Part shown: piece by piece, positions 33,875-55,674 of the stretch
Position numbering within the stretch: position 1 is the first letter of the stretch
Layout of the letters: each line of letters opens with the position of its first letter
Origin: Kordia aestuariivivens
GTDB taxonomy: Bacteria > Bacteroidota > Bacteroidia > Flavobacteriales > Flavobacteriaceae
Assembly: GCF_014397005.1 (NCBI RefSeq)
Contig: NZ_JACGWS010000005.1
Location: forward strand, 310,001-374,000
DNA length: 64,000 bases
Reading direction: 5' to 3'
Position numbers and translations under genes: made by a program
The notes under the pieces: generated by a model
Told to the model about the DNA's origin: nothing
The model's input: only the letters and a program-made list of their open reading frames with translations
Database searches by the model: none

Positions 33875-33875
33875 T

Positions 33876-37384: not shown

Positions 37385-37391
37385 CGTGTGC

Positions 37392-39059
37392 TTATTCTTC
37401 AATTTCTAATATTCCCCAAAAAGCACCTTTTCGTTGAAATTGCTCTTGATATTTATTTTCTAATTTGCTTAGAAAGTTTGGAATCACGGAGTAAAATACC
37501 ATTTTCTCATTCCCAAATTGTATCATAGATGCTTTATCGTATAGATTATCTCGCAAGATAAAAAAGTTTACTTCTAATTGATCGCCCGTTGCGTTTGTAA
37601 ATGTTCGTTCACAGTATAAGCCATTTTTAGTATAAAACAGCGGATCATTACTTGTATATCCTTTTTCAAAGAGTTTTGTGTACATCATGCAATGATCTGA
37701 ACCTTGAAGAATTCGGACATTATTTTTTATAGCAAATTGAAAAGCGTCTTCTCTTTCTTGATTTATTTTTTCAACAATTGCATACCATTCTCCACCCAAA
37801 AGTACAGAAAAGAAACCACCTAACGGTCTTGGCCCTTCAGGTGTTGGAATTGCCAAACCACCATGCAGCGTGATTCCAATGTCTGAATTTGCTGTTTTTT
37901 TGTCTGAATTATTTTTGATTGAGAATGTAAAATCTGGTCCCCAAACTACGTTATTGTAATTCACTTTTACGCCTATTAGCCACGGAATAAAGATGACAAT
38001 AAGTATCAATAAGCGAACACGTTTCGAACAATAATTCCATCCTGTAAGTACAATTAACAGAAAAGCAGGAAATACAAAAATCATTGTTTTAAATGTTCCA
38101 ACCGCTGTTATTAGAATGGCAAAAGGCAAATATGTTAGCAACAGGGGCAATAAGAGCTTGCTTTCTTTTTTTATTGTTGCAACGATTCCTAGGATGAATA
38201 AAATGACACAAGCTGGCGTTAAGAATGTAAAATTATTGATGAATGCAGCTTTTATTTTTGTACTCGTACTGATTGGTTCCGCCATGTATGACCTCGCAAA
38301 AAGAAATGTGTCTTTGATGTCAATAATAGAATATCCTGAAATAGCGATAAAAGTCAGTATCGTAAGTATACAGCTTACGCCAAATATAATACTTGTTGCG
38401 TAAAACCTTTTATCAGTAAAGACGTTTTTATTTTCGATTTTGTTGACTTGACTGTAATGCAAGAACAATTCTGCTAGTAAAAAGAAAATAAAGAATCCGT
38501 TTACCCATCTAAATCCTGTTGCAATTCCGAATGCAATCGCTGTAAGTATTAAAAAATAGTTTTTTCCTTTCTTGAAATAGTGCAATAAACTGCAATAAGA
38601 TAATAGTAAAAAGAAGAAAGAATGCATCGTTGGATTTATGTATAATCCTTCAAATAGTAATTCTGGTATCATGAAAGGAACTAACATTAAAAGAAAGAAA
38701 GTGCCTTTTAAATTGGTCTGTTTCGTTTTTACTAATACACAATATGACAATACTGACAACGAAGCCAACGTCATGATGAACGTGGAAAGCAACGCAAATT
38801 TTCGGTAAGCAACTTCACTTGCCAAACCAAAGAAACCAAGGTATGTATCAAATAGTGAATGATAAGATGAAAATGGTTTTTGCAGTGCCGCATCTCTTCC
38901 AAATAAGTGGTGTAAAATGATAGACGCATCGTCACCTTCTACATAGTTATAATTTAAAGAAGTAAAGAAAAGAATTGCAAATATGAATATATAATATACA
39001 GAAATAAGATAGTATATGTTTTTCTTTTTTGATGGGAATTTATACTTCATAGAAAGCAT
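37392..39059 (-). CDS. polytopic GT-C-like membrane protein
   Basis: A 555-aa protein with about eleven hydrophobic helices. The first periplasmic loop has VEGDDASIILHHLFGRDAA (about 40-58), with acidic residues reminiscent of PMT/ArnT-type GT-C enzymes. The last ~170 residues are soluble with GLAIPTPEGPRPLGG. It could transfer a sugar from a polyprenyl donor in the periplasm. Two in-frame ATGs (39059 and 39050) are plausible starts; both overlap the aminotransferase stop. Family is not certain. Confidence 0.6.
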   Translation of the reverse strand: MLSMKYKFPSKKKNIYYLISVYYIFIFAILFFTSLNYNYVEGDDASIILHHLFGRDAALQKPFSSYHSLFDTYLGFFGLASEVAYRKFALLSTFIMTLASLSVLSYCVLVKTKQTNLKGTFFLLMLVPFMIPELLFEGLYINPTMHSFFFLLLSYCSLLHYFKKGKNYFLILTAIAFGIATGFRWVNGFFIFFLLAELFLHYSQVNKIENKNVFTDKRFYATSIIFGVSCILTILTFIAISGYSIIDIKDTFLFARSYMAEPISTSTKIKAAFINNFTFLTPACVILFILGIVATIKKESKLLLPLLLTYLPFAILITAVGTFKTMIFVFPAFLLIVLTGWNYCSKRVRLLILIVIFIPWLIGVKVNYNNVVWGPDFTFSIKNNSDKKTANSDIGITLHGGLAIPTPEGPRPLGGFFSVLLGGEWYAIVEKINQEREDAFQFAIKNNVRILQGSDHCMMYTKLFEKGYTSNDPLFYTKNGLYCERTFTNATGDQLEVNFFILRDNLYDKASMIQFGNEKMVFYSVIPNFLSKLENKYQEQFQRKGAFWGILEIEE

Positions 39060-40164
39060 TGATATCTTTTATTATTTTTTCTACTTCTTCAATCGTTAGA
39101 TCGTAATATAAAGGCAATCGTACGAGTTGATTTGAATATTTTTCAACATTTCCCAACGTTCTACCATCATGTTCATCTGCAAAGTAATTGCTTAGATGTA
39201 ATGATTGGTAATGAAAAACTGCATGTACGTTGTGCTGTTTTAGGTGTTGAATGAGTTGTTTGCGCTCTTCTAAATTTTTACAAACCATATAAAACATGTG
39301 TCCATTAGAAACATGTTCTTCTAAGTTGAAGAATTGCAGATGTCCATTTTCTTCAAGCAATTGTAAACCTACGTAATATGCGTTCCAAATTTGTTTTCGT
39401 TTGGATTGAATTTTTTCTAAGTTTTCTAATTGTGCAAATAGAAACGCTGCGTTGAGTTCAGATGGCAAAAACGAAGAGCCAATGTCAACCCAACCATATT
39501 TGTCAATTTCGCCACGAAAAAAAGCAGCTCTGTTGGTTCCTTTTTCCCAAATGATTTCTGCGCGTTCTTTAAATTTTTCGTCATTAATCATCAACATGCC
39601 ACCTTCGCCACATTGAATGTTTTTGGTTTCATGAAAGGAATATGTTCCCATGTGTCCAATACCTCCAAGTGCTTTTCCGTTGTAAAACGAATCAATCGCT
39701 TGTGCAGCATCTTCAATTACATATAGATTATTTGTATTTGCAATATTCATAATGTAGTCCATATTGCATGGAATTCCTGCATAATGTACAACGACAATTG
39801 CTTTTGTTTTTTCTGTGATTAACGCTTCTATTTTCGTTTCGTCAATGTTTGGATTACTGTCTTTACTATCAACAAATACAATTTTTGCGCCTCGTAATAT
39901 AAATGCATTTGCAGTAGAAACAAAGGTAAACGCTGGCATGATGATTTCGTCACCTGGAACAATATTGAGCAATATTGCCGCCATTTCCAACGCATCTGTA
40001 CATGAAGTGGTCAGCAAGCATTTTTTGAATCCGTAAGCGTTTTCAAAGAATTCTTGACATAGTTTGGTGTATTTTCCGTTTCCAGAAATTTTCCCACATT
40101 GAACCGCATCCGTAATGTATGAAAGCTCATTTCCTATGATGTATGGTTTGTTGAATGGTATCAT
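39040..40164 (-). CDS. rffA: dTDP-4-amino-4,6-dideoxygalactose transaminase (WecE/RffA type)
   Basis: A PLP enzyme of 374 aa that closely resembles E. coli WecE in the text: MIPFNKPYIIGNE, SGNGKYTK, GDEIIMPAFTFVSTANAF, EDAAQAID, the PLP lysine in SFHETKN, and WEKGTNRAAFFRGEIDKYGW. It would transaminate dTDP-4-keto-6-deoxyglucose to dTDP-4-amino-4,6-dideoxygalactose. The required RmlA/RmlB enzymes are not in the window. The adjacent PglD-like acetyltransferase (1-base overlap) could N-acylate the product. Confidence 0.9.
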   Translation of the reverse strand: MIPFNKPYIIGNELSYITDAVQCGKISGNGKYTKLCQEFFENAYGFKKCLLTTSCTDALEMAAILLNIVPGDEIIMPAFTFVSTANAFILRGAKIVFVDSKDSNPNIDETKIEALITEKTKAIVVVHYAGIPCNMDYIMNIANTNNLYVIEDAAQAIDSFYNGKALGGIGHMGTYSFHETKNIQCGEGGMLMINDEKFKERAEIIWEKGTNRAAFFRGEIDKYGWVDIGSSFLPSELNAAFLFAQLENLEKIQSKRKQIWNAYYVGLQLLEENGHLQFFNLEEHVSNGHMFYMVCKNLEERKQLIQHLKQHNVHAVFHYQSLHLSNYFADEHDGRTLGNVEKYSNQLVRLPLYYDLTIEEVEKIIKDINAFYEV

Positions 40165-40799
40165 TACAATTGTATATTTTTCAGAAGGAAAGGATTTCCC
40201 AAACCTTTTGTTTTTGCAGGTACTGTTTTTGTTATCGAACTTCCTATTCCTATCACAGAATCAGCGCCAATATTGACATCATTTGAAATTAGAGAACCTG
40301 TTCCGATAAAGGTACGTTCTTCAATAGAGACACGACCAGAAATTACAACGCCAGGCGAAATATAACAGCATTCTCCAATAGTTGTATCGTGTGAAATAGT
40401 GACTGAATTATTAATTAAAGCACCCGATTTTATAGTCACGCCGGCATCAATAGTACACATTGGATAAATAATTACACCTTGCTCAATAATTGCATCAGAA
40501 GCAACATAACTACTTGGATGCACAAATGTTAGCAACAGATTTTCTTGTTTTTTTATATGATTTTGAATTTCTTGTTTGAGTGCTAAATATTTATAACCTA
40601 AACCAATACAGACTAAATAATCGTGAGGTAATTTGCTTTTATATGCATCAAATTTATATGAATTGTCAGCGCTTTTCTGCGCTTGCACATCATCAAAAAT
40701 TAGCGTTTCTGAAACCTTGATGTTTGCATTTTTTAGCAAATTTTCAACTTGCTTTCCCAAAACTCCATATCCTATGTATGCCAATTTGATAGTATTCAT
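40164..40799 (-). CDS. PglD/NeuD-type sugar N/O-acetyltransferase
   Basis: A 211-aa protein with a short Rossmann-like N terminus (LAYIGYGVLGKQV) and a left-handed beta-helix built of hexapeptide repeats (about 95-195, e.g. IEQGVIIYPMCTIDAGVTIKS). HDTTIGECCYISPG contains the catalytic-type histidine. This is the layout of PglD and NeuD, which acetylate amino sugars or nonulosonates. Directly next to the WecE-like aminotransferase, it most likely acylates the 4-amino sugar, though acting on the nonulosonate is possible. Confidence 0.85.
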   Translation of the reverse strand: MNTIKLAYIGYGVLGKQVENLLKNANIKVSETLIFDDVQAQKSADNSYKFDAYKSKLPHDYLVCIGLGYKYLALKQEIQNHIKKQENLLLTFVHPSSYVASDAIIEQGVIIYPMCTIDAGVTIKSGALINNSVTISHDTTIGECCYISPGVVISGRVSIEERTFIGTGSLISNDVNIGADSVIGIGSSITKTVPAKTKGLGNPFLLKNIQL

Positions 40800-40802
40800 A
40801 TG

Positions 40803-41714
40803 CTATTTCTTGATGGTATAATTTGGTCTCTTGGTCGTTTTCAAATTGATTCTGTATGTGTATTCGCCAATAATTCCTAAACCTAGTAAAAGAAAACTCA
40901 CGCCAATTCCGACAGCGATAATTAAGGTTGGAAAACCTGCAATTAAATCATCATATATTAACTTCCGAACCACAATATACACACTGTAAATTAAAGTGAT
41001 AAAAAATATCAAAATGGACGAATAGGATAAGATACGAATTGGAATGTTTGAAAATGTAAAGAGAATATTGATCGAATGTTCAACCAACTTTTTCGTTGTA
41101 TACGAACTCTCGCCTGCAAATCGTTCTTTGTGCTCTACTCTAGTACTACCTACATTATTCGTAATCCAACTTAGATAACCGTCTAAAAATGTGTATGAAT
41201 TTCGCATGCCAACCAATTGCAACGCAATGTCACGTTTAATTAATCGGAAAGCAGAATACTCTTTGTGTAAATTTTCAATAGCATAGGAAAGGACTTTTTT
41301 CAGAATTCTAGAAGTTATATTCCGAAATCGTGAATGCTCTAAGGATTCGTTCACACCATACACAACATCGTAATCTCCTTCTTTTTGCTTACTCAGCAAA
41401 CGTTTGATGTCTTTTGGTTGATGTTGCAAATCTTCATCCATCGTAATAATCATTTCACCAGAACACGCCGTAAAACCTGCAATAATAGCATTATGCTGCC
41501 CGTAATTTCGAGTCAACTCTATCACTTTTATATGTTCAGGAAATGCTTCTTTTAGCTTTTTTAAGACAGTGAGTGAATTGTCAGGGCCGCAATCGTTTAT
41601 AAAAATAATTTCATGTTTTAGCTGTTCTGCTTCACAAAATGTAACAATTTGTGAATGCAACGCTTCTAAGGTTTTTTCGCCATTATATACTGGCACAACA
41701 ATCGATATGTCCAT
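40803..41714 (-). CDS. polyprenyl-phosphate glycosyltransferase, family 2
   Basis: A 303-aa GT2 enzyme of the DPM1/ArnC/GtrB group. ISIVVPVYNGEKTLE, IFINDCGPDN and the metal-binding IITMDEDLQHQP (about 89-100) are followed by two C-terminal helices (about 230-290). These enzymes load a sugar onto undecaprenyl phosphate for use by a periplasmic GT-C transferase; the GT-C-like gene at 37.4-39.1 kb is a candidate user. It is located 3 nt after the WbqC gene-proximal stop region of its neighbours within the operon. Confidence 0.87.
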   Translation of the reverse strand: MDISIVVPVYNGEKTLEALHSQIVTFCEAEQLKHEIIFINDCGPDNSLTVLKKLKEAFPEHIKVIELTRNYGQHNAIIAGFTACSGEMIITMDEDLQHQPKDIKRLLSKQKEGDYDVVYGVNESLEHSRFRNITSRILKKVLSYAIENLHKEYSAFRLIKRDIALQLVGMRNSYTFLDGYLSWITNNVGSTRVEHKERFAGESSYTTKKLVEHSINILFTFSNIPIRILSYSSILIFFITLIYSVYIVVRKLIYDDLIAGFPTLIIAVGIGVSFLLLGLGIIGEYTYRINLKTTKRPNYTIKK

Positions 41715-41715
41715 T

Positions 41716-42411
41716 TTAGAAACTTTTCATGAATTTATGAGCATTTGGGCCTTCATTGAATATTAAATCTAATATAGTTACACCATGTTCAAATGGCAAA
41801 TATTTTTGATGGTATTCTGGATATCCTGAATAATCAACCCATTCTATTTTGATATTATGAGTTTCAAACAATTCAGTATCCATATAATTTTTAGCTTTCG
41901 GACCAGAAATATACGTTGTTGCATTTAGTTGTTGACAAATTTCGATCAATCGTTCATTTCTACTTCCTTTAAATTGCAAATCTTTACTTTGAATAATTTC
42001 AGTCTCAATATTCAATATTTTATTGATTGTTTTGATAAAAGAAATGTTTATTTCTGACAAATTTGTCGCTGAAACATCTAAATATAACTGTTCAAAAACT
42101 TCTTTATATGTATTAAAATATGGCGTTTTGTTATAATTCTGAACAATCGTTTTCCAGTGTTTCTTTCGCCATATCTGGTTAGAAACTTCCGTTTCGTTTA
42201 TTTTTTGCCCAAATTTCCCGCTCATTTGTATTGGAATTGTGAGCCATTGTGTTCCATTTTGGGTTTTGATAATGTTTCTATTTCGCCAATCGTTTTTGGT
42301 ATATTGCATTTCGTCATACACTACAAAAACATCGGAATTATTTATCATATCAAAATAACCCTTCCAAGGAATGTAGTTTGATTGTATAATGGCAACTTTT
42401 TTAGGCTTCAT
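41716..42411 (-). CDS. WbqC-family protein
   Basis: A 231-aa WbqC-like protein, a family common in O-antigen loci. The diagnostic start VAIIQSNYIPWKGYFDMI is followed by VVYDEMQYTKNDWRNRN and LTIPI. The biochemical role is poorly defined; links to 4-amino-sugar modification have been proposed. I take the ATG at 42411 (MKPKKVAI), which overlaps the neuB stop by 11 bases; an ATG five codons earlier is also possible. It lies next to the WecE/PglD genes after one GT2. Confidence 0.85.
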   Translation of the reverse strand: MKPKKVAIIQSNYIPWKGYFDMINNSDVFVVYDEMQYTKNDWRNRNIIKTQNGTQWLTIPIQMSGKFGQKINETEVSNQIWRKKHWKTIVQNYNKTPYFNTYKEVFEQLYLDVSATNLSEINISFIKTINKILNIETEIIQSKDLQFKGSRNERLIEICQQLNATTYISGPKAKNYMDTELFETHNIKIEWVDYSGYPEYHQKYLPFEHGVTILDLIFNEGPNAHKFMKSF

Positions 42412-43411
42412 GAATATCTTCTTCATTTAAAAAATTCCACTGTTTCATAGATTTCACAAGCTTTTTACCAATAACTTCTTGAAATTTTGACGCTAGGATT
42501 CCGTAATTTTTTGGCTTTTTCGCTTCCAAATCATCAAACGTCAAGATATGTCCTTTTGGCAAGTCTTTATTAACCGCTAATGATTTTTCAAATATTTGTT
42601 TGAGTTCCGAAAATTGCGAATTGTCTTTTTTATCTATTGGATGATTCAACGCTTCATCAATGTTTCTGACTGCTTTTACTAATTGTGTCGTTTCTGGAAA
42701 TGTTAAGGATGATTTTGCATCTGGACCGAACATTTCTTTGTCAAAAACCACATGAAATTCTAGAATTTCCGCACCTAAAGTCGCAGCAGCAATTCCCGCT
42801 TCGATTCCTGAAGAATGATCTGAAAAACCAATAGAAACCTGATATTTTTCTTTTAATTCTTGAATAACGTTTAACCCAAATTGCTTAGGCGCTGTCGGAT
42901 ATGACGTTGTGCACTGTAAGATGGAGAATTCGCAGTTTTTTCCTTTTAAGAACGCTACTGTTTCATCCAATTCAGCAAACGAACTCATTCCCGAAGAAAT
43001 GATAATTGGTTTTTTGGTATTCGCGATTTTCTCCAATAATAGAAAATTATTGACTTCACCTGAACCTACTTTATACAGTTTTACGCCAACTTCTTCTAAC
43101 AAATCCACTGCTGCATTGCTAAATGGCGACGAAATAAAATCGAGCCCTACTTCATCACAGTGTGCTTTGAGCCCTTTCCACTGCTCCAACGAAAATTCCA
43201 TACGTTGCCAGTATTCGTAACGCGTTGCATCTTGTTTGGAGAATTTTACTCTGAAAGGTTCGTGCACGCTACTTTCCGCAGCAGCGATATGCGTTTGAAA
43301 CTTGATTGCATCCGCGCCCGTTTTTGCCACAGCATCAATGTACGCATGCGCCATGCCGAGACTTCCGTCGTGTGCTTGTGCGATTTCTGCTATGATGTAG
43401 GTTTTTTTCAT
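42401..43411 (-). CDS. neuB: N-acetylneuraminate/nonulosonate synthase
   Basis: A 336-aa synthase that condenses phosphoenolpyruvate with ManNAc or a 6-deoxy analogue to give a nonulosonic acid. The NeuB barrel shows IIAEIAQAHDGSLGMAHAYIDA, ADAIKFQTHIAAAE, LYKVGSGEVNNFLLLEKIA, IISSGMSS, CTTSYPTAP and IGFSDHSSGIE. The C-terminal SAF (antifreeze-like) domain covers about 280-336. Its start is only 9 nt from an array of ten 7-bp repeats. It heads the sugar-precursor block of the operon. Confidence 0.92.
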   Translation of the reverse strand: MKKTYIIAEIAQAHDGSLGMAHAYIDAVAKTGADAIKFQTHIAAAESSVHEPFRVKFSKQDATRYEYWQRMEFSLEQWKGLKAHCDEVGLDFISSPFSNAAVDLLEEVGVKLYKVGSGEVNNFLLLEKIANTKKPIIISSGMSSFAELDETVAFLKGKNCEFSILQCTTSYPTAPKQFGLNVIQELKEKYQVSIGFSDHSSGIEAGIAAATLGAEILEFHVVFDKEMFGPDAKSSLTFPETTQLVKAVRNIDEALNHPIDKKDNSQFSELKQIFEKSLAVNKDLPKGHILTFDDLEAKKPKNYGILASKFQEVIGKKLVKSMKQWNFLNEEDIHEA

Positions 43412-46491: not shown

Positions 46492-47817
46492 TTATTTAGA
46501 GTCTAAAGGTTCTTTTTTTATGTTCCACGCTAACATTGGACGCATGATACCAGGCCATTTTCCTGCATAAGGTCCACGAACACCATCGCCTGTTGTATCA
46601 TCAAATACTTCAAAACTTAATAAATTATCTTCAATGGCGTGAATGATTTCTGGATTGTAATTTCCAACCGCAATTAATAGATTGAATTGTCCTTCTGCTA
46701 ATAAATGACGTGGAATTTTACAGGTAGCCGTCACAATTCCTTTTTCTTTGTTGTGAAAGTCTAACCAATCTGGCGCATTGAATTCATTGGACGCAAATAA
46801 ACGTTGTCCGCGTTCGTTTACGACATGAATTATTGCAGTATTGTTGTATTCTGTGTTTAAATCCCAATAGGAAACTTCTACATAAATATCATCCCGAACA
46901 CTGAAACGATTGCATAAATCACCTTTTTCATTGCGAACTGCCGCCGATTTTAATCGACCAAAGTCGTTTCCTGGTGCAGTATCCATATCTTCCCATTCAC
47001 AATATGGTTTTGTATCTAATCCTTGATTTAGGTATGCTTGAATCGCTTTTTCCGTATCGCCATCAAATAGTACTTCTCCATCTGACAATACAACTGTACG
47101 TTGTGTTAGTTTTTGAATAGCATCCATATCGTGACTTACAAATAAAACCGTACGTCCTTCACCTTTGGCAATGTCTTGCATTTTTCCAATGGCTTTTTTC
47201 TGAAATTCTGCATCACCAACTGCCAATACTTCATCAACCACTAATATTTCAGGTTCTAAATGTGCAGCTACGGCAAATGCTAAACGTACTTTCATTCCAG
47301 AAGAATATCGTTTTACAGGTGTATTTACATACCGTTGCACACCCGCAAATTCTACTATTTCGTCAAATTTTGTTTTGATTTCGGCTTTGGTCATTCCCAA
47401 AATAGCGCCGTTTAGGAAGATGTTTTCTTTTCCAGTTAATTCTGGATGAAATCCGGTTCCAACTTCTAATAAGGAAGCTATTCTACCTTTGGAACGAATG
47501 ATTCCCGTTGTTGGCATCGTTACTTTGGATAGAATTTTTAGCAAGGTAGATTTCCCTGCACCATTTTTTCCAATGATACCTAGTACTTCTCCGCTACGCA
47601 CTTCAAAATTTACATCTTTGATTGCCCAAACATAGTCCGTTTTTCCAAGGGAAGCACGTTTGTTGCGCTCACCTATACGTAAATATGGATCTTCTTTTCC
47701 ACGAATTTTATGCCACCAACGATTCAAATCGTGACTGATGGTTCCTGTTCCAATAACACCTAAACGATATTGTTTGGATAGATTTTCTACGCGTAATATG
47801 ACTTCTTTTTCCTCCAT
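46492..47817 (-). CDS. wzt: polysaccharide ABC exporter ATPase with C-terminal binding domain
   Basis: A 441-aa Wzt protein. The ATPase half (about 30-260) shows Walker A GIIGKNGAGKSTLL, signature KRYSSGMKVRLA, Walker B ILVVDEVLAVGD and the H-loop SHDMDA. The C-terminal half (about 280-425) is a beta-sandwich-like domain with YVEVSYWDLNTEYNNTAIIHV, as in Wzt proteins that bind the modified non-reducing end of the glycan. It pairs with the Wzm permease, whose stop codon it overlaps by one base. Confidence 0.93.
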   Translation of the reverse strand: MEEKEVILRVENLSKQYRLGVIGTGTISHDLNRWWHKIRGKEDPYLRIGERNKRASLGKTDYVWAIKDVNFEVRSGEVLGIIGKNGAGKSTLLKILSKVTMPTTGIIRSKGRIASLLEVGTGFHPELTGKENIFLNGAILGMTKAEIKTKFDEIVEFAGVQRYVNTPVKRYSSGMKVRLAFAVAAHLEPEILVVDEVLAVGDAEFQKKAIGKMQDIAKGEGRTVLFVSHDMDAIQKLTQRTVVLSDGEVLFDGDTEKAIQAYLNQGLDTKPYCEWEDMDTAPGNDFGRLKSAAVRNEKGDLCNRFSVRDDIYVEVSYWDLNTEYNNTAIIHVVNERGQRLFASNEFNAPDWLDFHNKEKGIVTATCKIPRHLLAEGQFNLLIAVGNYNPEIIHAIEDNLLSFEVFDDTTGDGVRGPYAGKWPGIMRPMLAWNIKKEPLDSK

Positions 47818-48707
47818 TATACCGTATCTATAAAATTACGTTCTGTTCTATTGAATATAATGAGTCCGAAAAGAAAGATAACGAAAGCCACCACTAACAT
47901 CGCTAGAATGTTAACTGACGAAAAATCGTTTGTTGGATCTTTCATGTATGCGCCCGAAAAAACCATGTATCGAAACGATTCTATTACATGTGCTAACGGA
48001 TTGTATTCTACCAACCAAGAAACATAACTTGGTAATTTATCTTTTACAATTGCAATTGGATACATTACTGCCGAAATGTACATGAATAGTTGAATTCCAA
48101 ATTGTACTAAGAATGTTAAATCGCGATATTTTGTCACCATGGAGGAAATAATCATTCCGAAACCTAAGCCCAACATTCCCATGATGAGAATGATCACTGG
48201 TGTCCACAGAATGTATATTGAAACCGTTCCTGCATCGCCACTTAATGAAAAGTATACATAGAAAGCAATAAATATTAGTAATTGTATTGCTAGTTTTAAT
48301 AAGTTGGAAACCGTAATTGATAACGGCATGATAACTCTTGGAAAGTAAACTTTCCCAAAGATGTTTTCGTTCTTTTTAAAGGTATCTGAAGTCGCTTTGA
48401 GACATTCTGCAAAGTAATTCCAAATGGTAATTCCCGCAAGGTTAAACAAAAAAGCATTTACACTTCCTGTGCTAATGTCTGCAATTCCGTTAAATACGAG
48501 CGTAAATATAACCGACGTTAGTAATGGTTGAATTAAATACCACAATGGTCCTAAAACCGTTTGTTTGTATAGTGTGACCACATCACGACGTACAAAAAGC
48601 ATCAGTAAATCTCGGTATTGCCAAATTTCTTTGAATTTGAAATCTAGGAGATTGCTTTTTGAAGATATTTCAAATAACCATGTATTATTTTTTTGGGGCT
48701 TGTCCAA
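47817..48707 (-). CDS. wzm: polysaccharide ABC exporter permease
   Basis: A 296-aa integral membrane permease of the ABC-2 type. FKEIWQYRDLLMLFVRRDVVTLYKQTVLGPLWYLIQPL (about 24-61) is the conserved cytoplasmic entry helix, followed by six hydrophobic segments. It forms the channel through which lipid-linked glycan crosses the inner membrane with Wzt. The start is TTG at 48707; there is no ATG upstream of the conserved helix. It is 16 nt after the SxtJ gene. Confidence 0.92.
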   Translation of the reverse strand: MDKPQKNNTWLFEISSKSNLLDFKFKEIWQYRDLLMLFVRRDVVTLYKQTVLGPLWYLIQPLLTSVIFTLVFNGIADISTGSVNAFLFNLAGITIWNYFAECLKATSDTFKKNENIFGKVYFPRVIMPLSITVSNLLKLAIQLLIFIAFYVYFSLSGDAGTVSIYILWTPVIILIMGMLGLGFGMIISSMVTKYRDLTFLVQFGIQLFMYISAVMYPIAIVKDKLPSYVSWLVEYNPLAHVIESFRYMVFSGAYMKDPTNDFSSVNILAMLVVAFVIFLFGLIIFNRTERNFIDTV

Positions 48708-48723: not shown

Positions 48724-49104
48724 TTACCAAATATTTTCTAAATCTTTTTTGGTGTAGGTATGATTACGTTCTACAAATGTGGTTTTAGAGCTTTGCTTGA
48801 GTTGTAATGCGTTTTTTGAGAATATTCTTGACAGTATTCCAAATGGTGTCAGAAAGATAAAAAACACAACTGATAGGATAATTTTTGTATTGACCCAACC
48901 TAAAACCATGGCAATTTTTTCCCAAATCCAAACCACTAATCGTTCTAATGGTGGGAAAAAAGAAGCTGTACCAATTCCTAACGCAACATAACGTACATAT
49001 TTTGCAGCATCAATTTTTAAATAGTAAAACTCTAGCACGGCTGAGATTATTAAAAACCCAGCAATAATAACCAATAATACTTTTGAATTATCCTCTTTTT
49101 TCAT
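48724..49104 (-). CDS. SxtJ-family membrane protein
   Basis: A 126-aa protein with two or three hydrophobic segments (about 9-30, 38-52 and 74-95) and a hydrophilic tail KTTFVERNHTYTKKDLENIW. The sequence fits the SxtJ family, first named in saxitoxin clusters, where it accompanies a carbamoyltransferase (SxtI) and a small protein (SxtK). The same three-gene arrangement is present here. The function is not known; a membrane anchor or chaperone for the carbamoyltransferase is a guess. Confidence 0.8.
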   Translation of the reverse strand: MKKEDNSKVLLVIIAGFLIISAVLEFYYLKIDAAKYVRYVALGIGTASFFPPLERLVVWIWEKIAMVLGWVNTKIILSVVFFIFLTPFGILSRIFSKNALQLKQSSKTTFVERNHTYTKKDLENIW

Positions 49105-49197
49105 TTGATATTTTTTATTTTATGAATTAAGCCAAATGGAATTCGCCAATAATCAAATCGGTTGGCACCAACTGATTACTAAGGCTCATTTCATATA

Positions 49198-49347
49198 CTA
49201 GAATAATGTGTAAATAAATGGTGCTACGGCAGATCCACCTGCTAATACTAAGATGACACCTAATAGTAGTAATACGATAATCATTGGCAAAAGCCAGAAT
49301 TTTTTTCGTTCTTTTAAGAAATTAAACATGTCCTTCAAAAACTCCAT
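49198..49347 (-). CDS. DUF5989 (SxtK-like) small membrane protein
   Basis: A 49-aa protein. MEFLKDMFNFLKERKKFWL forms an amphipathic start, followed by a single membrane helix and the end APFIYTLF. This matches the DUF5989 pattern of 50-residue proteins next to SxtJ and carbamoyltransferases. The stop of the SGNH hydrolase lies three bases upstream, and 93 nt separate it from SxtJ. Its conservation with those partners suggests an accessory subunit. Confidence 0.8.
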   Translation of the reverse strand: MEFLKDMFNFLKERKKFWLLPMIIVLLLLGVILVLAGGSAVAPFIYTLF

Positions 49348-49350
49348 AAT

Positions 49351-50490
49351 CTATTTATTTTTGTCTTTTATAAATTTCGCTAGTTCGTCGCCCATTTTTT
49401 TGCTTCCCTCAGGATTAAAATGGCAATCATCATACAAATACGTGCTTGTTTTTGGAATGATGGAATCTGTTTTGAATACCCGAATATTGAATTGTTTCCC
49501 TTGATTCACCGTAATTGCATTGATGCTATCTACTTTTTGTTGCAGTTTCTTCGCATTGTATCGAATACCGCCACGGGACGTCATCCAATGCCAGTTTTTC
49601 AATGCTTCTTCTTCCGTATCCCAAGTCACTACTTGCGTCGCAAATATAAGCTTTATATCATTTGCTTGACAAATACCGATCAACGATTTTAATTTATTAC
49701 TGTAATTTCCATAATCGGTTTCAGGTAGCTGATTTTCAACAGGTCGCGCTTGTGTTTTGGTTACTTTTTTTCGATAGTTCGATTGAATTTCTATCGTTTC
49801 CAACGCTTCATCTTTACTTTTGAACGCGTAGTATAAACGTCGTGGAATTTGAAATTCATACATAAAAACACCCAACATGTTTCCAAAACTGACTTCAGCG
49901 TCTTCTTTTTTCGTTACATTGAATTTGAGTGGATTTTTGTCTAACATTAAACGTGTCACATCATTTATTCCACAGAAAACAATGACTTCATCAGGTTGCA
50001 AGTGAATGATTCGGTGTGACAACATTGCCAAATGATCTTGAATGTTATCGCCTGATTTTCCTGCGTTGTATACTTTTACTATTGTAGAATCATTTTCACG
50101 ATTCAGGTTTTCTTGTAATACATGCGTCCAAACGTCTGTGTCGTCAATGTATAAACTTTCCGTAGAACTTCCGCCAATAGCGAAAATTCTGTATTCATTG
50201 TTTGGTTTCGGCACGATGAGTTCATCACCACGAAAACCATAGTTATTGATTGTAAAGTTGGTTGTTTCTTTATAAGTATCAAATCCTAATAAACCATCTT
50301 CCGTAGCAAATTGCAATGCTAAATTTTGATCGAACTGCGATTCAATATATTGGTTTCCAACTGTTGGAAAGAACATGTTTTTCTTCGCATTCTCGTACGG
50401 ATCAGGCACAGGAAAAAACTGCAAAATCACTTCAACTAGCACTAAAAGCACTAATAGTATAATTAGGTTATATTTTATTGTTTTCCACAC
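49351..50490 (-). CDS. SGNH/GDSL-type hydrolase, membrane anchored
   Basis: A 379-aa protein when started at the GTG at 50490, just after the carbamoyltransferase stop. A longer TTG-started form (50523) would overlap by 28 bases. One N-terminal helix anchors an exported SGNH domain: IFAIGGSSTESLYI supplies the Ser nucleophile, VIVFCGINDVTRL the Asn block, and DDCHFNPEGSKKM the Asp/His pair near the C terminus. It may be an esterase or acyltransferase acting on the glycan. The gene is embedded in the sxtI/J/K-like cassette. Confidence 0.75.
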   Translation of the reverse strand: MWKTIKYNLIILLVLLVLVEVILQFFPVPDPYENAKKNMFFPTVGNQYIESQFDQNLALQFATEDGLLGFDTYKETTNFTINNYGFRGDELIVPKPNNEYRIFAIGGSSTESLYIDDTDVWTHVLQENLNRENDSTIVKVYNAGKSGDNIQDHLAMLSHRIIHLQPDEVIVFCGINDVTRLMLDKNPLKFNVTKKEDAEVSFGNMLGVFMYEFQIPRRLYYAFKSKDEALETIEIQSNYRKKVTKTQARPVENQLPETDYGNYSNKLKSLIGICQANDIKLIFATQVVTWDTEEEALKNWHWMTSRGGIRYNAKKLQQKVDSINAITVNQGKQFNIRVFKTDSIIPKTSTYLYDDCHFNPEGSKKMGDELAKFIKDKNK

Positions 50491-50495
50491 AATAA

Positions 50496-52355
50496 TTAGT
50501 CTAATAAAAATTCTTCTTTCCAATCATCCGCATCTTGCCAACTTGGTTGATTTTCTTTTTTGTAAACATGGTTTCCAATGACTAAATAGTCCATTTCCGT
50601 TCGCATAAAACAACGATATGCATCATCTGGTGAACAAACAATCGGTTCTCCACGCACATTAAAACTTGTGTTAACCACAACGCCAACACCCGTAATTTTC
50701 TTGAATTCATTGATCAATTCCCAATATTCAGCATTCGTATCTTTGTGAACCGTTTGAATTCTTCCAGAGAAATCAATATGCGTAATTGCTGGCAATGAAG
50801 AACGTTCTACATATAGTTTATCACGAATTGGCAACTCGTTATAGTTTGCTGGAACTTCATGCTTTATTTTTGGGTGAATTTTATGCACCAATAACATGTA
50901 TGGCGAAATTCCTTCGTAATCGAAAAATTCGTTTACATCTTCTGCCAAAACTGAAGGCGCAAACGGTCGGAACGATTCTCTATATTTTATTTTTAGGTTG
51001 AGTTTTTTCTGCATTTCAGGATTTCGTGCGTCACCTAAGATACTTCTTCGACCCAATGCACGTGGACCAAATTCCATACGTCCTTGCATCCAACCAATGG
51101 CGTTTCCTTCTGAAATGTATGTTGCAACATCTTTTGTTAATTCATTAAAATCTGAATAATGTGTTGCTACTGCACTGTATTTCCTGTTGATATTTTCTAC
51201 ATCTAAGTCTGAGTATTCAGGACCTAAATACGAACCTTGCATTGCATCTGTTGGTACAATTTCACGTTCTTGTTCAAAGTATAGATGATACGCCGTTAAT
51301 GCAGCTCCTAATGCGCCTCCAGCATCTCCAGCCGCTGGCTGAATGAATATTTCTTTGAATATGTTTTCGTTTTGTAATTTTCCGTTTGCAACACAGTTTA
51401 GTGCAACTCCACCAGCCATACATAAATAATCGGCTCCTGTGATTTCTTTGGCGTGTTTTGCAAGTTTGATGATGATTTCTTCCGTAACTTCCTGAATTGC
51501 CAAACCGAGATCGGAATGTTGTTGTTCAAATTCAGATTCTGAGGTTCTTCGTGGGAAACCGAACAATGCTTCCCATTTGTCATCATACACCATGCGTAAA
51601 CCTACCGCATAGTTGAAATATTTTTGATCTAACCAAATGGAACCGTCATCATTTATTTTGATGAGTTTCGTTTTGATGATTTCTTTGAATTTACGAACAC
51701 GTTCCGAATCTGGATTCCCGTAAGGTGCCAACCCCATGAGTTTGTATTCACCTGAGTTTACTTTGAATCCTAAGAAATATGTGAATGCAGAATACAATAA
51801 TCCAACAGAATGTGGAAATTGCAATTCTTTGAGCATTTTAATGTTTTTTCCTTCTCCAACACTAATGGAAGCGGTTGCCCACTCGCCTACACCATCTAAG
51901 GTTAAGATTGCTGCTTTTTCGTAAGGCGACGGATAAAATGCACTTGCCGCGTGTGATAAGTGATGCTCTGGAAAGAGTAATTTTAGTTTTTTCTTGTCAA
52001 ACGATTGTACTTCTTTGAGTTCATCTTTGATCAATTTTTTTAGGAACATTTTCTCCTTCAACCACACCGGAATTGCTGTGATGAATGACGCTACACCTTT
52101 CGGCGAGAAGCCATAATAGGTTTCTAGTAAACGTTCAAATTTTAATAATGGTTTGTCATAAAAGACAACCGCATCTAGTTGATCTATTGTTTTACCAGCA
52201 TGTTCCAAACAATACGAAACGGCATTCGTAGGAAACGCTGGATCGTGTTTTTTTCGTGTAAAACGTTCTTCTTGTGCTGCTGCTATTACTTTTCCATCTT
52301 GGACGATAGCTGCGGCAGAATCGTGGTAAAATGCGGATATTCCTAATATCGTCAT
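50496..52355 (-). CDS. carbamoyltransferase (NodU/TobZ/SxtI family)
   Basis: A 619-aa cytoplasmic enzyme using carbamoyl phosphate and ATP to O-carbamoylate a hydroxyl. The Kae1-like N-terminal half has ISAFYHDSAAAIVQDG, HHLSHAASAFYPSPYEKAA and LTLDGVGEWAT; the C-terminal YrdC-related half has the GRMEFGPRALGRRSILGD and YRESFRPFAPSVL motifs. Location within the export genes suggests the acceptor is a polysaccharide sugar or lipid-linked intermediate. It is followed by SGNH, DUF5989 and SxtJ genes. Confidence 0.88.
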   Translation of the reverse strand: MTILGISAFYHDSAAAIVQDGKVIAAAQEERFTRKKHDPAFPTNAVSYCLEHAGKTIDQLDAVVFYDKPLLKFERLLETYYGFSPKGVASFITAIPVWLKEKMFLKKLIKDELKEVQSFDKKKLKLLFPEHHLSHAASAFYPSPYEKAAILTLDGVGEWATASISVGEGKNIKMLKELQFPHSVGLLYSAFTYFLGFKVNSGEYKLMGLAPYGNPDSERVRKFKEIIKTKLIKINDDGSIWLDQKYFNYAVGLRMVYDDKWEALFGFPRRTSESEFEQQHSDLGLAIQEVTEEIIIKLAKHAKEITGADYLCMAGGVALNCVANGKLQNENIFKEIFIQPAAGDAGGALGAALTAYHLYFEQEREIVPTDAMQGSYLGPEYSDLDVENINRKYSAVATHYSDFNELTKDVATYISEGNAIGWMQGRMEFGPRALGRRSILGDARNPEMQKKLNLKIKYRESFRPFAPSVLAEDVNEFFDYEGISPYMLLVHKIHPKIKHEVPANYNELPIRDKLYVERSSLPAITHIDFSGRIQTVHKDTNAEYWELINEFKKITGVGVVVNTSFNVRGEPIVCSPDDAYRCFMRTEMDYLVIGNHVYKKENQPSWQDADDWKEEFLLD

Positions 52356-52406: not shown

Positions 52407-54866
52407 TTAGTTTTTATTTTTTCGGAAAAGACTTTTTAGTCTCGACAATACTGTTTTTTGTTCGTCTTCATGATAGCCATTTCCATAACTTCCATAGCCA
52501 TAACCGTAGCCATAACCGTATCCATAACCATAACCATATTTCGCTTTTTGGCGGTAATCATTGAATACAAGACTTATATTTTTCACTTCTCCTTTTTTAT
52601 ATTTATCATTGATGATATTCAACATTGCCTTTTTTGTATAATCTTGTCGAATCATATATATAGTAGCATCAACGTGATCTATGAGGTCTAATGCATCCGC
52701 AACCAAACCTACTGGCGGCGTATCTAAAATGATATAATCGTACCGTTGTTTAAGTTCCCCAATAAATTCGTCTAATTGCTGACTGATTAATAATTCTGAA
52801 GGATTTGGCGGAATTGGTCCAGACGTAATAATATCTAAATTTTCATATTTTGTTGGTTGAATTACTTCATCTAATGTTTTTTGTCCGATCAAATAATTTA
52901 CTGTACCAAATTCGTTGGTAATCCCAAAATCACCAAAAATTTTAGGTTTACGCAAATCTAATCCTACTAAAATTGTCTTTTTTCCTGTTAATGATAATAC
53001 AGATGCTACATTGATAGAGCAAAATGTTTTTCCTTCTCCACTAACTGAAGAAGTGACCATTACAGTTTTTGTTTTGTTTTTATCTATATTTTTGTAAATG
53101 TATTGCAAGCTTGATCGAATTCCACGGAATGATTCTGCTACCGAAGATTTAGGATTTTCAAATACCGCCAAATTTGTTTCAGCTCTACTACGACTGACAA
53201 TTCCCAAAATAGGAATGTTAGATAAGTTTTTTATATCATCTGGCGTATTGATATTATTGTCTAAAATAGTGACTAGAAATACAAATGCCATCGGAATTAA
53301 TAGTCCAAGAAATAGTGCAACGGAATAGTTTTTTTGAGTGTTTGGCATAATTGATCCTTGCCCTAAATCTTTAGCACTGTCAATAACTTTTACATCCGAA
53401 ACATTGGCTGCTTTTACAATTCCTGCTTCGTTTTTCTTTTCCAATAATAATGTATATGAAGCTTCACTTAATTTATAACTACGTTCAATATTGAACAATT
53501 GTTGTTCTTCTTCTGGAAGCTTTCTAAATTCGGCATTTGCTCTTGCAGTTCTAGTATTGACATTAGAAATATCAATATCTATAGATGAACGTGCAGATTT
53601 TACACTTTCAAGCAATACGCTCTTTGTGGATTGTATGTCTTGATCTATTTCTTTAAAGAAAACATCATTTTTGACGGTTTCTCCTAGTTTGGCACGTTTA
53701 ATTGATAATCCAACGATTTTAGATACATTGTTCACAATATTTGCATCTTCAATTCCAGAAGAAGCTGGCGCTGGCAACGATCTGAAATCTGTACTATTGA
53801 TTAAATAATCTTCTAGTAATTTGTAGTATTGAAGCTTCAGCATGTAATCATTCTTCTCAATACTATATTTATTCAGCTTAGCAAAAACTTCTTCTCCTTT
53901 TAAGGATGGATTGAATACTTTGTTATCCTGTTTGTATTTTTTTAATTTTAATTCGTCTTTTCGCAAAGAATCTTCTACACCAGTAATCATTTTATCAATG
54001 AACGCAAGCGTATTGGTTGCAAATTGATTCTTTTCTTCAAGTTGTTTTTCTTTTAAAATTTCTGAAGTAACATTCAAATAATCCGCTAAAATAGCTCTAT
54101 TCGGACCTGTTAAACTTAGCACCAACATAGAAGCTCCTTGTACTTTTAAGTTGACTGCGATAGCTCTGTATTTGGAAATTTCAGAATTTAAGCTTGTAAA
54201 TACAACAAAATATTCTTTTCCAACCTCAATGTTTGTATTTCTTCGTGGCGTGAGTGCAAATTTATAGTAATCTGTAGCCGCTTCTTCATCTATAACAAAA
54301 TCATCAGAAAACACTTCTTCTTTAGGAATAATGCCAACAGCTTTATTCAATTTATAATTTATACTGGAAAAACTTTCTGCATTGGTAAAGTCGATAGTTG
54401 TTGTATATTTTTGGTCACCAGTAAATACAATTTTTATAGGCGTATTGAGGATTTGCGGATGATTTTCATCCAAACTGACTATAAATGGCGCATTTGTGTG
54501 AATGTCTTCTAAACGATATTCGCCTTGTTTTTTATAATGAATATACGATTCTAAAACACGTACCACATTTTCGTTATGTCCTCTAGATTTTAAAATTGTT
54601 TTGATGGTTTCTACTTTGTCACTCGCACCGCCCCAATTGAACGTTAGGTTCATACTCGACGAAAAGAAAGGGTTTTGTTCTTCTTTTATAGAAATTAAGC
54701 TTTCTACTCTATAAATTCGTTCCAATTGCTTGTTATAAAAATACGTAGCAACGAAAGCTATTCCTAATGTAATCACAAACAAATACCAATAATTTAGCGC
54801 TCGAAAAGCAAGTGCCTTGATATCGAAGGAATTTTGTGATTTTAATTCTTCAAATTCTTCTTCCAT
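52407..54866 (-). CDS. wzc: chain-length determinant tyrosine kinase (Wzc-like)
   Basis: An 819-aa inner-membrane copolymerase. Two membrane helices (about 30-50 and 515-535) flank a long periplasmic coiled-coil region. The cytoplasmic BY-kinase has Walker A SGEGKTF, Walker A' VGLDLRKPK, Walker B YIILDTPPVG and a C-terminal Tyr cluster in which GY is repeated about eight times. Autophosphorylation of that cluster controls export length through Wza. It starts 4 nt after the wza stop. The GY-coding DNA is a hexamer repeat that can vary in number. Confidence 0.92.
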   Translation of the reverse strand: MEEEFEELKSQNSFDIKALAFRALNYWYLFVITLGIAFVATYFYNKQLERIYRVESLISIKEEQNPFFSSSMNLTFNWGGASDKVETIKTILKSRGHNENVVRVLESYIHYKKQGEYRLEDIHTNAPFIVSLDENHPQILNTPIKIVFTGDQKYTTTIDFTNAESFSSINYKLNKAVGIIPKEEVFSDDFVIDEEAATDYYKFALTPRRNTNIEVGKEYFVVFTSLNSEISKYRAIAVNLKVQGASMLVLSLTGPNRAILADYLNVTSEILKEKQLEEKNQFATNTLAFIDKMITGVEDSLRKDELKLKKYKQDNKVFNPSLKGEEVFAKLNKYSIEKNDYMLKLQYYKLLEDYLINSTDFRSLPAPASSGIEDANIVNNVSKIVGLSIKRAKLGETVKNDVFFKEIDQDIQSTKSVLLESVKSARSSIDIDISNVNTRTARANAEFRKLPEEEQQLFNIERSYKLSEASYTLLLEKKNEAGIVKAANVSDVKVIDSAKDLGQGSIMPNTQKNYSVALFLGLLIPMAFVFLVTILDNNINTPDDIKNLSNIPILGIVSRSRAETNLAVFENPKSSVAESFRGIRSSLQYIYKNIDKNKTKTVMVTSSVSGEGKTFCSINVASVLSLTGKKTILVGLDLRKPKIFGDFGITNEFGTVNYLIGQKTLDEVIQPTKYENLDIITSGPIPPNPSELLISQQLDEFIGELKQRYDYIILDTPPVGLVADALDLIDHVDATIYMIRQDYTKKAMLNIINDKYKKGEVKNISLVFNDYRQKAKYGYGYGYGYGYGYGYGSYGNGYHEDEQKTVLSRLKSLFRKNKN

Positions 54867-54870
54867 ATCA

Positions 54871-55674
54871 CTATAAATTTCTAGATAGTACTATTACACT
54901 TGTTACCAATGATAATACCGTAACAATTGTTGTTATAGATTGTATAAGCGTTGTTCCTGTTCCTAAAGATTTTTGTTTTAATGGCTTTACATAAATCATA
55001 TCATTAGGTTTTATGTAATAATATGGAGAGTTAAATGCTTCAATACTTGTGAGATCAATATGATGTATTTTTTGTCCTTGAGGATATTGACGAATGATCA
55101 ATACATCTTTTCTATTTCCAACCGTAGTAATATCTCCTGAACTTGCCAATGCTTCAATAATATTTACACGATCTTGGTATAGAACATAGATTCCTGTGTT
55201 ACCAACTTCTCCCGTAACTGTAAATCGTAATCCTGCTAATTTTACCACAACAAAAAGGTCCGCTTCTTCTTTGAAATAATCTTCTAACAACTTTTTCTTG
55301 ATTGCTTCTTCTATCTCAGTCAACGTATAAGCGAGGACATTCATCTTTCCAAGCGTAGGAATTTCAATATTTCCGTGCTTACTTACCGTAAATCCATTAA
55401 AATATAAACTTTGCTCGGAAGTTCCATTGTTAGAACCATCTTCGCTCGCTACTGGTTGAAACATCGCTACCAATTTTTGATCAGACGATTTAATCATTAT
55501 GGATAGCAAATCACTAATTTGAACTCTATAAGGTTTTTCGTTTAATTTTATATTCTGAGCAAGTAACTCATCTCCGTTACCTTTATCACCAAAATAAGTC
55601 AAATCTTTATTGGAAACACAAGAAGTTAGCAAAAAGAATGTAACTAAAATAGATATTGAGGCTTTCAATTTCAT
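54871..55674 (-). CDS. wza: outer-membrane polysaccharide export lipoprotein
   Basis: A 267-aa lipoprotein of the Wza/polysaccharide-export family. The lipobox LLTSC (Cys19) follows the signal peptide. The export domain begins near YRVQISDLLSIMIKS (about 54-68), and an SLBB domain follows with VTGEVGNTGIYVLYQDRVNIIEALASSGDITTVGNRKDVLIIR. A C-terminal helix (about 245-265) could span the outer membrane. It is the first gene of the operon and is shorter than E. coli Wza, as usual in Bacteroidota. Confidence 0.92.
   Translation of the reverse strand: MKLKASISILVTFFLLTSCVSNKDLTYFGDKGNGDELLAQNIKLNEKPYRVQISDLLSIMIKSSDQKLVAMFQPVASEDGSNNGTSEQSLYFNGFTVSKHGNIEIPTLGKMNVLAYTLTEIEEAIKKKLLEDYFKEEADLFVVVKLAGLRFTVTGEVGNTGIYVLYQDRVNIIEALASSGDITTVGNRKDVLIIRQYPQGQKIHHIDLTSIEAFNSPYYYIKPNDMIYVKPLKQKSLGTGTTLIQSITTIVTVLSLVTSVIVLSRNL

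Follow-up and report, generated by a model that had tools for sequence, protein, structure and literature searches.

The stretch of DNA analysed here (the window; 64,000 nucleotides of Kordia aestuariivivens contig NZ_JACGWS010000005.1, positions 310,001 to 374,000) carries a set of four genes, here called the cassette, encoding an O-carbamoyltransferase (CT), an SGNH protein, a 49-residue microprotein of the DUF5989 family and an SxtJ-like membrane protein. An earlier note, made from the sequence alone, had placed these genes on one strand between those for a Wzc-like kinase and a Wzm-like permease, an arrangement that Pfam searches confirm (Table 1). On the minus strand the order of transcription is Poly_export/Wza-like, Wzc, CT, SGNH, DUF5989, SxtJ-like, Wzm-like, Wzt-like, methyltransferase and glycosyltransferase. 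With gene starts set mechanically, on which these values depend, CT and SGNH overlap by 28 bp, while 3 bp separate SGNH from DUF5989, 93 bp DUF5989 from SxtJ and 16 bp SxtJ from Wzm. Because the spacing is so tight, the genes from CT to Wzm probably form one operon. The nearest named locus is that of Kordia zhangzhouensis, whose DUF5989 is 96% identical.

Table 1. Positions of the cassette, its notable segments and neighbouring genes in the window
Feature	Position	Strand	Evidence or remark
CT, O-carbamoyltransferase (NodU/TobZ/GdmN family), 619 amino acids (aa)	50496-52355	-	Pfam Carbam_trans_N 314 bits, Carbam_trans_C 237.6 bits
SGNH protein, 390 aa	49351-50523	-	Pfam Lipase_GDSL 41.6 bits, Lipase_GDSL_2 40.5 bits
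DUF5989 microprotein, 49 aa	49198-49347	-	Pfam PF19451 92.4 bits (cut-off 27)
SxtJ-like membrane protein, 126 aa	48724-49104	-	Pfam PF19588 22.7 bits, under the cut-off of 24.4
CT cassette-specific helical block, residues 65-116	52008-52163	-	Conservation and AlphaFold2 model
FIYTLF codons, DUF5989 residues 44-49, then stop	49201-49218	-	Tyr46 at 49210-49212
Wzm-like ABC-2 permease	47817-48707	-	Pfam; context, downstream of the SxtJ-like gene
Wzt-like ATP-binding cassette (ABC) ATPase	46492-47817	-	Context, downstream; Wzt_C-like end 27.0 bits (cut-off 30.4)
Wzc-like tyrosine kinase	52407-54866	-	Context, upstream of CT
Poly_export/Wza-like gene	54871-55674	-	Context, upstream of Wzc
MBOAT acyltransferase ending ...DFIYFQF	34800-36227	-	Positive control for the shuttle motif from within the same glycan locus
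SGNH-like neighbour of the MBOAT, 307 aa	33876-34799	-	Weak 19-bit match to the cassette SGNH hidden Markov model (HMM), residues 39-300

Association of the three families across genomes

Co-occurrence was counted in 296 genomes of the phylum of the window (Bacteroidota; the phylum sample) and in 200 genomes of the proteobacterial phylum to which Azorhizobium (L134) belongs. In each phylum the three family searches covered equal numbers of genomes with overlapping handles, and each trio was treated as one sample; Fisher tests on linkage ignore the kinship of the genomes. DUF5989 matches under the cut-off were left out of the counts (G273 and G140 in the phylum sample, G443 and G469 in the proteobacterial sample).

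In the phylum sample DUF5989 was found in 106 genomes (104 over the cut-off), CT in 128 and SxtJ in 93 at E <= 0.001 (89 over the cut-off). DUF5989 over the cut-off and CT occurred together in 103 genomes, CT alone in 25, neither in 167 and DUF5989 alone in a single one (1/104; G047), whose match has an internal stop close to the contig end. Both CT and DUF5989 accompanied SxtJ in 93/93 genomes, and 11 genomes with DUF5989 gave no SxtJ match. The proteobacterial sample held DUF5989 over the cut-off in 47 genomes, CT in 92 and SxtJ in 41; CT accompanied DUF5989 in 47/47 and lay within 3 kb of it in 49/53 DUF5989 matches, SxtJ and DUF5989 were common to 40 genomes, SxtJ and CT occurred without DUF5989 in one (G447), and 7 DUF5989 genomes gave no SxtJ match. 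With the two samples pooled, CT accompanies DUF5989 in 150 of 151 DUF5989 genomes. The co-occurrence that the earlier note had put forward as a check thus holds in one direction: DUF5989 and SxtJ hardly ever occur in a genome that has no CT, whereas CT is often without them (25/128 and 45/92 CT genomes). The two small proteins thus keep company with CT, which can do without either.

The genes are also close to one another. Among 80 named loci from many phyla (Bacteroidota, proteobacteria including Pelagibacteraceae, Nitrospira, cyanobacteria, Elusimicrobia and others), CT was present in 76 and SxtJ, sought with an iterated HMM, in 77, and all three genes lay within 3.5 kb on one strand in 74. 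The supposition of a general carbamoylation machine stands in this respect, that the set of CT, SxtJ and DUF5989 is spread far wider than saxitoxin clusters. Loci were read in the phylum sample for 90 of the 107 listed DUF5989 matches (G273, without DUF5989 by our own HMM, among them), and the three genes fell within 3.5 kb in 35 of 59 large DUF5989 loci. A further 20 regions at CT or SxtJ were read in 13 of the other genomes. The three genes are all apart and yet kept in seven of these (G030, G179, G183, G085, G207, G034 and G219), CT and SxtJ adjoin with DUF5989 elsewhere in five (G112, G223, G035, G082 and G242), and one (G125) was read at CT only. DUF5989 is inherited together with CT, even where the genes are scattered.

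CT was likewise found in 8/8 genomes picked for their loci, three of these loci (L100, L122 and L128) being without CT. In four loci from two families (L053, L062, L065 and L066) DUF5989 lies ~130-300 bp upstream of carA, encoding the small chain of carbamoyl phosphate synthase, on the same strand; carA was called by Pfam in one of them and by phmmer in the other three. The presence of CT in 150/151 and 8/8 DUF5989 genomes, together with the adjoining carA, supports carbamoyl rather than another group as the one handled.

Other compositions were also seen: in L106 a single SxtJ-DUF5989 pair is flanked by two CT genes (622 and 631 aa), and in an IMG/VR contig (L171) DUF5989 has no cassette partner within 17 kb. 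A second IMG/VR match to DUF5989 is cut by the contig edge and was left out, and tblastn searches of plasmid and phage collections gave no DUF5989 match at E 0.01.

The DUF5989 tail and its protein partners

DUF5989 of the window ends in APFIYTLF, followed directly by the stop codon. The pattern F[IV]Y..F stands at the stop in 171/171 DUF5989 open reading frames (ORFs; 90 drawn with the Pfam HMM, 80 from named loci and one from a viral contig), and F.Y..F does so in 90/90 of those drawn with the Pfam HMM (window counted twice); the named loci were partly fetched by a pattern containing the motif and the Pfam HMM covers the motif positions, so that neither set is wholly blind. Across 152 distinct DUF5989 sequences P43, F44, Y46 and F49 are conserved at 100%. 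As a control, the ending is shared by 7 of 42,125 other closed stop-to-stop ORFs, five of them shorter than 40 aa; for control ORFs of at least 100 aa, many of which are spurious frames, the figure is 2/4,942, and both encode MBOATs. All four MBOATs found in the genome of the window (4/4) end in FIYF.F, one of them inside this locus.

The microprotein is predicted to have one membrane helix, oriented N-in/C-out by charge: residues 1-18 are net positive in 170/171 sequences and residues 38-49 net zero in 171/171. Passages of PMC12148441 describe FXYXXF as a C-terminal acyl-shuttle motif of DltX and of MBOATs such as PatA, in which the motif Tyr takes the acyl group and passes it to a Ser of an SGNH protein. 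According to a passage of PMC5541007, DltX of B. thuringiensis, at 48 aa, is predicted to have its N-terminus in the cytoplasm and a single helix, with a tail on the outside that ends in FIYNEF. By analogy, the FIYTLF at its C-terminus suggests that DUF5989 carries a group covalently, a role that takes the place of the “presentation or export” formerly suggested for the membrane proteins.

The cassette resembles the Dlt system (DltA, DltC, DltB, DltX, DltD) in its ATP-activated cytosolic donor, its microprotein of ~50 aa with a single helix and the ending FIYxxF-COOH, its SGNH protein, proposed to act last, and its encoding in what is probably one operon. It differs in having neither an MBOAT (DltB) nor a carrier protein, in its donor enzyme, an O-carbamoyltransferase, and in the group transferred, which would be carbamoyl. 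With PatA/PatB and AlgI/AlgJ/AlgX it shares a C-terminal FXYXXF on a membrane partner and an SGNH acceptor, but in those systems the MBOAT itself bears the tail, and PatA takes its group from acetyl-CoA. We know of no Dlt counterpart of SxtJ. Assignment of DUF5989 to DltX itself was rejected, as PF12459 gave no match, and only the likeness in layout and motif is kept; PF12459 is over its cut-off in 0/8 DUF5989-carrying genomes, with no weak match at any DUF5989 site. Sequence searches of the PDB gave nothing significant for DUF5989 or SxtJ (best E 0.93 and 3.8, respectively), and DUF5989 is named in no paper of the open-licence PMC text searched.

The SxtJ-like protein of the window scores just short of its Pfam cut-off, and the call is supported by synteny and by an HMM iterated from this protein, which matches in 77/80 named DUF5989 loci. 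In 134 relatives W61 is kept at 100%, P87 at 97% and an aromatic last residue at 97%. We propose that this protein serves as a platform on which CT and DUF5989 meet. Of the 25 CT-only genomes, two (G211 and G227) carry one ORF of 196 or 186 aa (L188:4555-5142 and L189:3716-4273) between a cassette-type CT and a gene matching our SGNH HMM, and this ORF, with an SxtJ-like front and a membrane helix at a tail ending in NNYTLY or DTYTLY, is presumed to be a fusion of SxtJ and DUF5989. The Tyr at −4 and the TL are kept while both flanking Phe change. The likeness lies in position, topology and tail; neither the SxtJ HMM nor the DUF5989 HMM matches these ORFs (no match across L173-L192), and a search for further copies found the query alone among 77 genomes of the family. 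A different arrangement is seen at L128:6525-10147, where an MBOAT with the shuttle motif at its end and two SGNH-type genes, one called by Pfam and the other by our own HMM only, immediately precede DUF5989; no CT lies within 20 kb of this DUF5989, and CT is found elsewhere in the genome.

A phmmer search of the PDB matched CT of the window to the structures of GdmN, NovN and TobZ (best E 2.6e-88), free-standing O-carbamoyltransferases of the same enzyme family, to which WapO and NodU also belong. Enzymes of this family make carbamoyl-AMP from carbamoyl phosphate and ATP in the cytosol, and to our knowledge the free-standing ones have no membrane partners. Both CT domains (PF02543/PF16861) are present, and H131, H135 and D154, which we take from TobZ to be metal-site residues, are invariant in 59 aligned cassette CTs. 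K72, R75, P85, G87, F91, P96, W98 and K102 are conserved at 96-100% in 104 cassette CTs versus 10-65% in 20 comparison CTs, the latter taken from places without DUF5989 and including three that are themselves cassette-type. The block at residues 65-116 is missing in part from GdmN and NovN, and 13 of its residues are unmatched in the GdmN alignment. In the AlphaFold2 model (mean predicted local distance difference test score, pLDDT, 84.8) the block forms helices at 68-83, 87-103 and 105-116, with a pLDDT of 56-63 at residues 71-100. A block that is conserved yet uncertain when modelled alone is what would be expected of an interface, and we propose it as the docking surface for SxtJ and DUF5989. 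Its description as a pure insert was rejected, since what the alignment reveals is a conserved block (65-112) and a stretch confined to cassette CTs (498-517). The genome of the window has a second, non-cassette CT on contig C8 (L173), which adjoins an ORF of 711 aa that matches the SGNH HMM and found no match in a Pfam search.

The SGNH protein of the cassette, in its AlphaFold2 model (mean pLDDT 74.5), has an N-terminal membrane helix (2-35) and an SGNH core, and from this helix and the charges its catalytic site would lie outside the membrane. The catalytic residues are Ser119, His368 and Asp365; G117, S119 and H368 are present in 32/32 aligned rows and D365 in 27/32. In the same-strand flanking ORFs scanned (110 of 126), Lipase_GDSL_2 leads the Pfam families with 9, and ALGX, a family of SGNH acetyltransferases, comes third with 5, although the two lists may overlap. 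An SGNH HMM, built with length limits and trained on cassette neighbours, a training that favours near matches, gave 51 matches within 5 kb (731 kb-bins) versus 7 at 5-10 kb (586 kb-bins). Two types prevail, one of ~320-480 aa and one of 600-770 aa, several of the latter with TPR repeats. In ten of the 171 loci 2-4 SGNH matches lie at most 6.5 kb from DUF5989, and eight of these loci also contain CT; such numbers of SGNH proteins per CT fit acceptor-specific transferases and would be odd for a decarbamoylase. We propose that the SGNH protein is the terminal carbamoyl transferase.

Further SGNH arrangements were seen. Three SGNH-HMM-matching genes stand in a row right after CT-SxtJ-DUF5989 at L112:2894-6699 and L170:10122-14061, with a fourth upstream in L170, and the SGNH-matching gene next to the cassette at L101:9008-9994 falls into two ORFs, of 119 and 209 aa. 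Among the structural matches shown for the cassette SGNH, the one aligned over the greatest length is CgnD (PDB 8a2n) of the crocagin pathway, which also has a carbamoyltransferase; CgnD differs in being reported as a very slow leader-removing protease in crocagin biosynthesis.

The surroundings of the cassette bear on its substrate. The region 33176-43411 of the window encodes NeuB, a UDP-GlcNAc 2-epimerase, a cytidylyltransferase, a DegT aminotransferase and a hexapeptide transferase, and because of these genes the exported glycan probably contains a nonulosonic acid. A surface glycan as the target of the cassette fits the adjoining exporter and the nonulosonic-acid genes. The MBOAT of the window and its SGNH-like neighbour, for which a Pfam search gave no match, probably make up an ordinary acyl-transfer pair within the glycan locus of the cassette.

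A proposed carbamoyl relay and its alternatives

We lean, if only slightly, towards reading the four genes as a trans-envelope carbamoyl relay, similar to the Dlt and MBOAT-SGNH systems but operating without an MBOAT. CT, as a member of its family, would make carbamoyl-AMP from carbamoyl phosphate and ATP in the cytosol, dock through its helical block on SxtJ and DUF5989 and load the carbamoyl group onto Tyr46 of FIYTLF; the C-terminus of DUF5989, placed at the periplasmic face, would have to dip into a funnel formed with SxtJ. The carbamoyl-Tyr tail, behaving as in DltX and PatA, would hand the group to Ser119 of the membrane-anchored SGNH protein, which would in turn put it on a hydroxyl of the glycan brought out by the adjacent ABC exporter, leaving a carbamate there. 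Such a relay is a variant of the tyrosine shuttle, having the motif and the SGNH partner in common with it and lacking the MBOAT. Among the open-licence PMC papers listed, so far as titles and the starts of abstracts tell, none joins a carbamoyltransferase with an SGNH transferase or an acyl-Tyr.

A number of observations weigh against this relay. Its weak step is the loading of a periplasmic Tyr by a cytosolic CT, and both the reach of CT to Tyr46 and the catalyst are unexplained, because there is no MBOAT (none of the four cassette proteins matches one in Pfam) and no His is conserved in the 134 SxtJ relatives. PF12459 gave no match, at E up to 10, to the DUF5989 proteins of the window and L091. 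CT occurs without DUF5989 at the frequencies given above, and 24/59 large DUF5989 loci of the phylum sample are without CT and/or SxtJ nearby. SGNH is found within 6.5 kb of DUF5989 in only 45/80 named loci, and near 35/76 cassette CTs versus 3/17 non-cassette CTs, a difference that is not significant (P = 0.054). Some tandem SGNH calls rest on our own HMM alone, because two of the three tandem matches scanned had no Pfam match at E 0.001. At the block II position, which is Ser or Asn in OatA and PatB according to a passage of PMC12148441, the SGNH protein of the window has kept Gly (Gly158, by our own assignment), and the 32 rows have Gly in 25, Ser in 3, Asn in 2 and other residues in 2. The structural matches shown for the SGNH model are mostly esterases; its neighbours do not separate transferases from esterases, and DltD and PatB are absent among the rows shown, which argues against neither reading. 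Carbamoyl-serine is slow to hydrolyse, as is known for serine hydrolases treated with carbamate inhibitors, which would suit a transferase and could make the block II change unnecessary.

Several of these points agree with an alternative that we consider unlikely, though it is the best placed of the three weighed here, in which CT carbamoylates a sugar nucleotide, a lipid-linked sugar or the nascent glycan in the cytosol, SxtJ and DUF5989 anchor CT by the exporter, and the SGNH protein works as an esterase, editing the carbamate or taking it off. WapO and NodU are thought to carbamoylate in the cytosol, and GdmN and TobZ, free-standing members of the family with solved structures, are credited with carbamoylation alone. 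Frequent occurrence of CT without DUF5989 (25/128, 45/92) and the resemblance of the SGNH model to esterases agree with this, and since the exporter here is of the ABC type, the glycan is probably finished in the cytosol. Passages of the literature list Pseudomonas aeruginosa WapO as a putative core carbamoyltransferase (PMC8005017) and SxtL as a proposed decarbamoylase (PMC2679770). Mere anchoring, however, predicts neither an invariant Tyr in an FXYXXF-COOH tail common to MBOATs nor the presence of 2-4 SGNH matches beside one DUF5989.

That FIYTLF is a docking tail only, holding the SGNH protein or the exporter to DUF5989 and never acylated, we regard as improbable. The whole hexapeptide is kept rather than Tyr alone, aromatic tails can serve as binding motifs, and an acyl-donor site such as the MBOAT His is not conserved in SxtJ. 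The presumed fusions nevertheless change both flanking Phe (DTYTLY, NNYTLY) while keeping the Tyr at −4 and the TL, and the same Tyr is the nucleophile in DltX and PatA in a passage of PMC12148441. Least probable is that DUF5989 shuttles acetyl or another acyl group made elsewhere and that its tie to CT reflects a mixed decoration locus. In favour are the arrangement in L128, where an MBOAT and SGNH-type genes stand before DUF5989 and CT is absent over 20 kb, and the presence of MBOATs in the loci of L091 and the window. Against it, the L128 genome does carry CT, DUF5989 without CT in the genome is confined to 1/104 (G047) and 0/47, and MBOATs have their own tail.

The saxitoxin cluster and wider meaning

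In the saxitoxin cluster the published gene order is sxtI (CT), sxtJ, sxtK (165 bp) and sxtL (GDSL-lipase-like), SxtJ and SxtK were already proposed to act together with SxtI, and SxtL was proposed to be a decarbamoylase, as given in passages of PMC2679770. The published passages available call SxtJ and SxtK unknown or uncharacterised and give no mechanism. Two cyanobacterial loci (L112 and L170) have the order CT, SxtJ, DUF5989, SGNH, which is that of sxtI, J, K and L. From its 165-bp size and the published gene order, rather than from sequence, SxtK looks like DUF5989. By the same gene order sxtI-J-K-L looks like the same set as the cassette, and on this likeness SxtL may be a transferase rather than a decarbamoylase. 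The saxitoxin system differs in its small-molecule substrate and in the role published for SxtL. In the cluster of L. wollei sxtI is truncated, sxtL is absent and no carbamoylated toxins are made, according to a passage of PMC3037375, a pattern that is consistent with one functional unit and also with the older reading.

More broadly, and tentatively, since we put the chance of it a little under even, CT, SxtJ, DUF5989 and SGNH may constitute a third class of trans-membrane acyltransferase of the tyrosine-shuttle kind, next to MBOAT-SGNH and AT3-SGNH, and the first to dispense with a large membrane-bound acyltransferase. This class would carbamoylate surface glycans across many phyla, a single loading module supplying several SGNH end-enzymes, and sxtIJKL would be a captured copy, SxtK being its carrier and SxtL a transferase, not a decarbamoylase.

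The carbamoyl relay hinges on one residue, Tyr46, and is therefore easy to disprove. For DUF5989, SxtJ and the companion SGNH protein, which recur across many phyla and had no chemical role assigned, it offers one that can be tested, and it reopens the published annotations of SxtJ and SxtK, for which no role is known, and of SxtL, the proposed decarbamoylase. If it is true, the tyrosine-shuttle principle would extend to carbamoyl and to MBOAT-free machines, and carbamate would be predicted on the surface glycans of many environmental bacteria.

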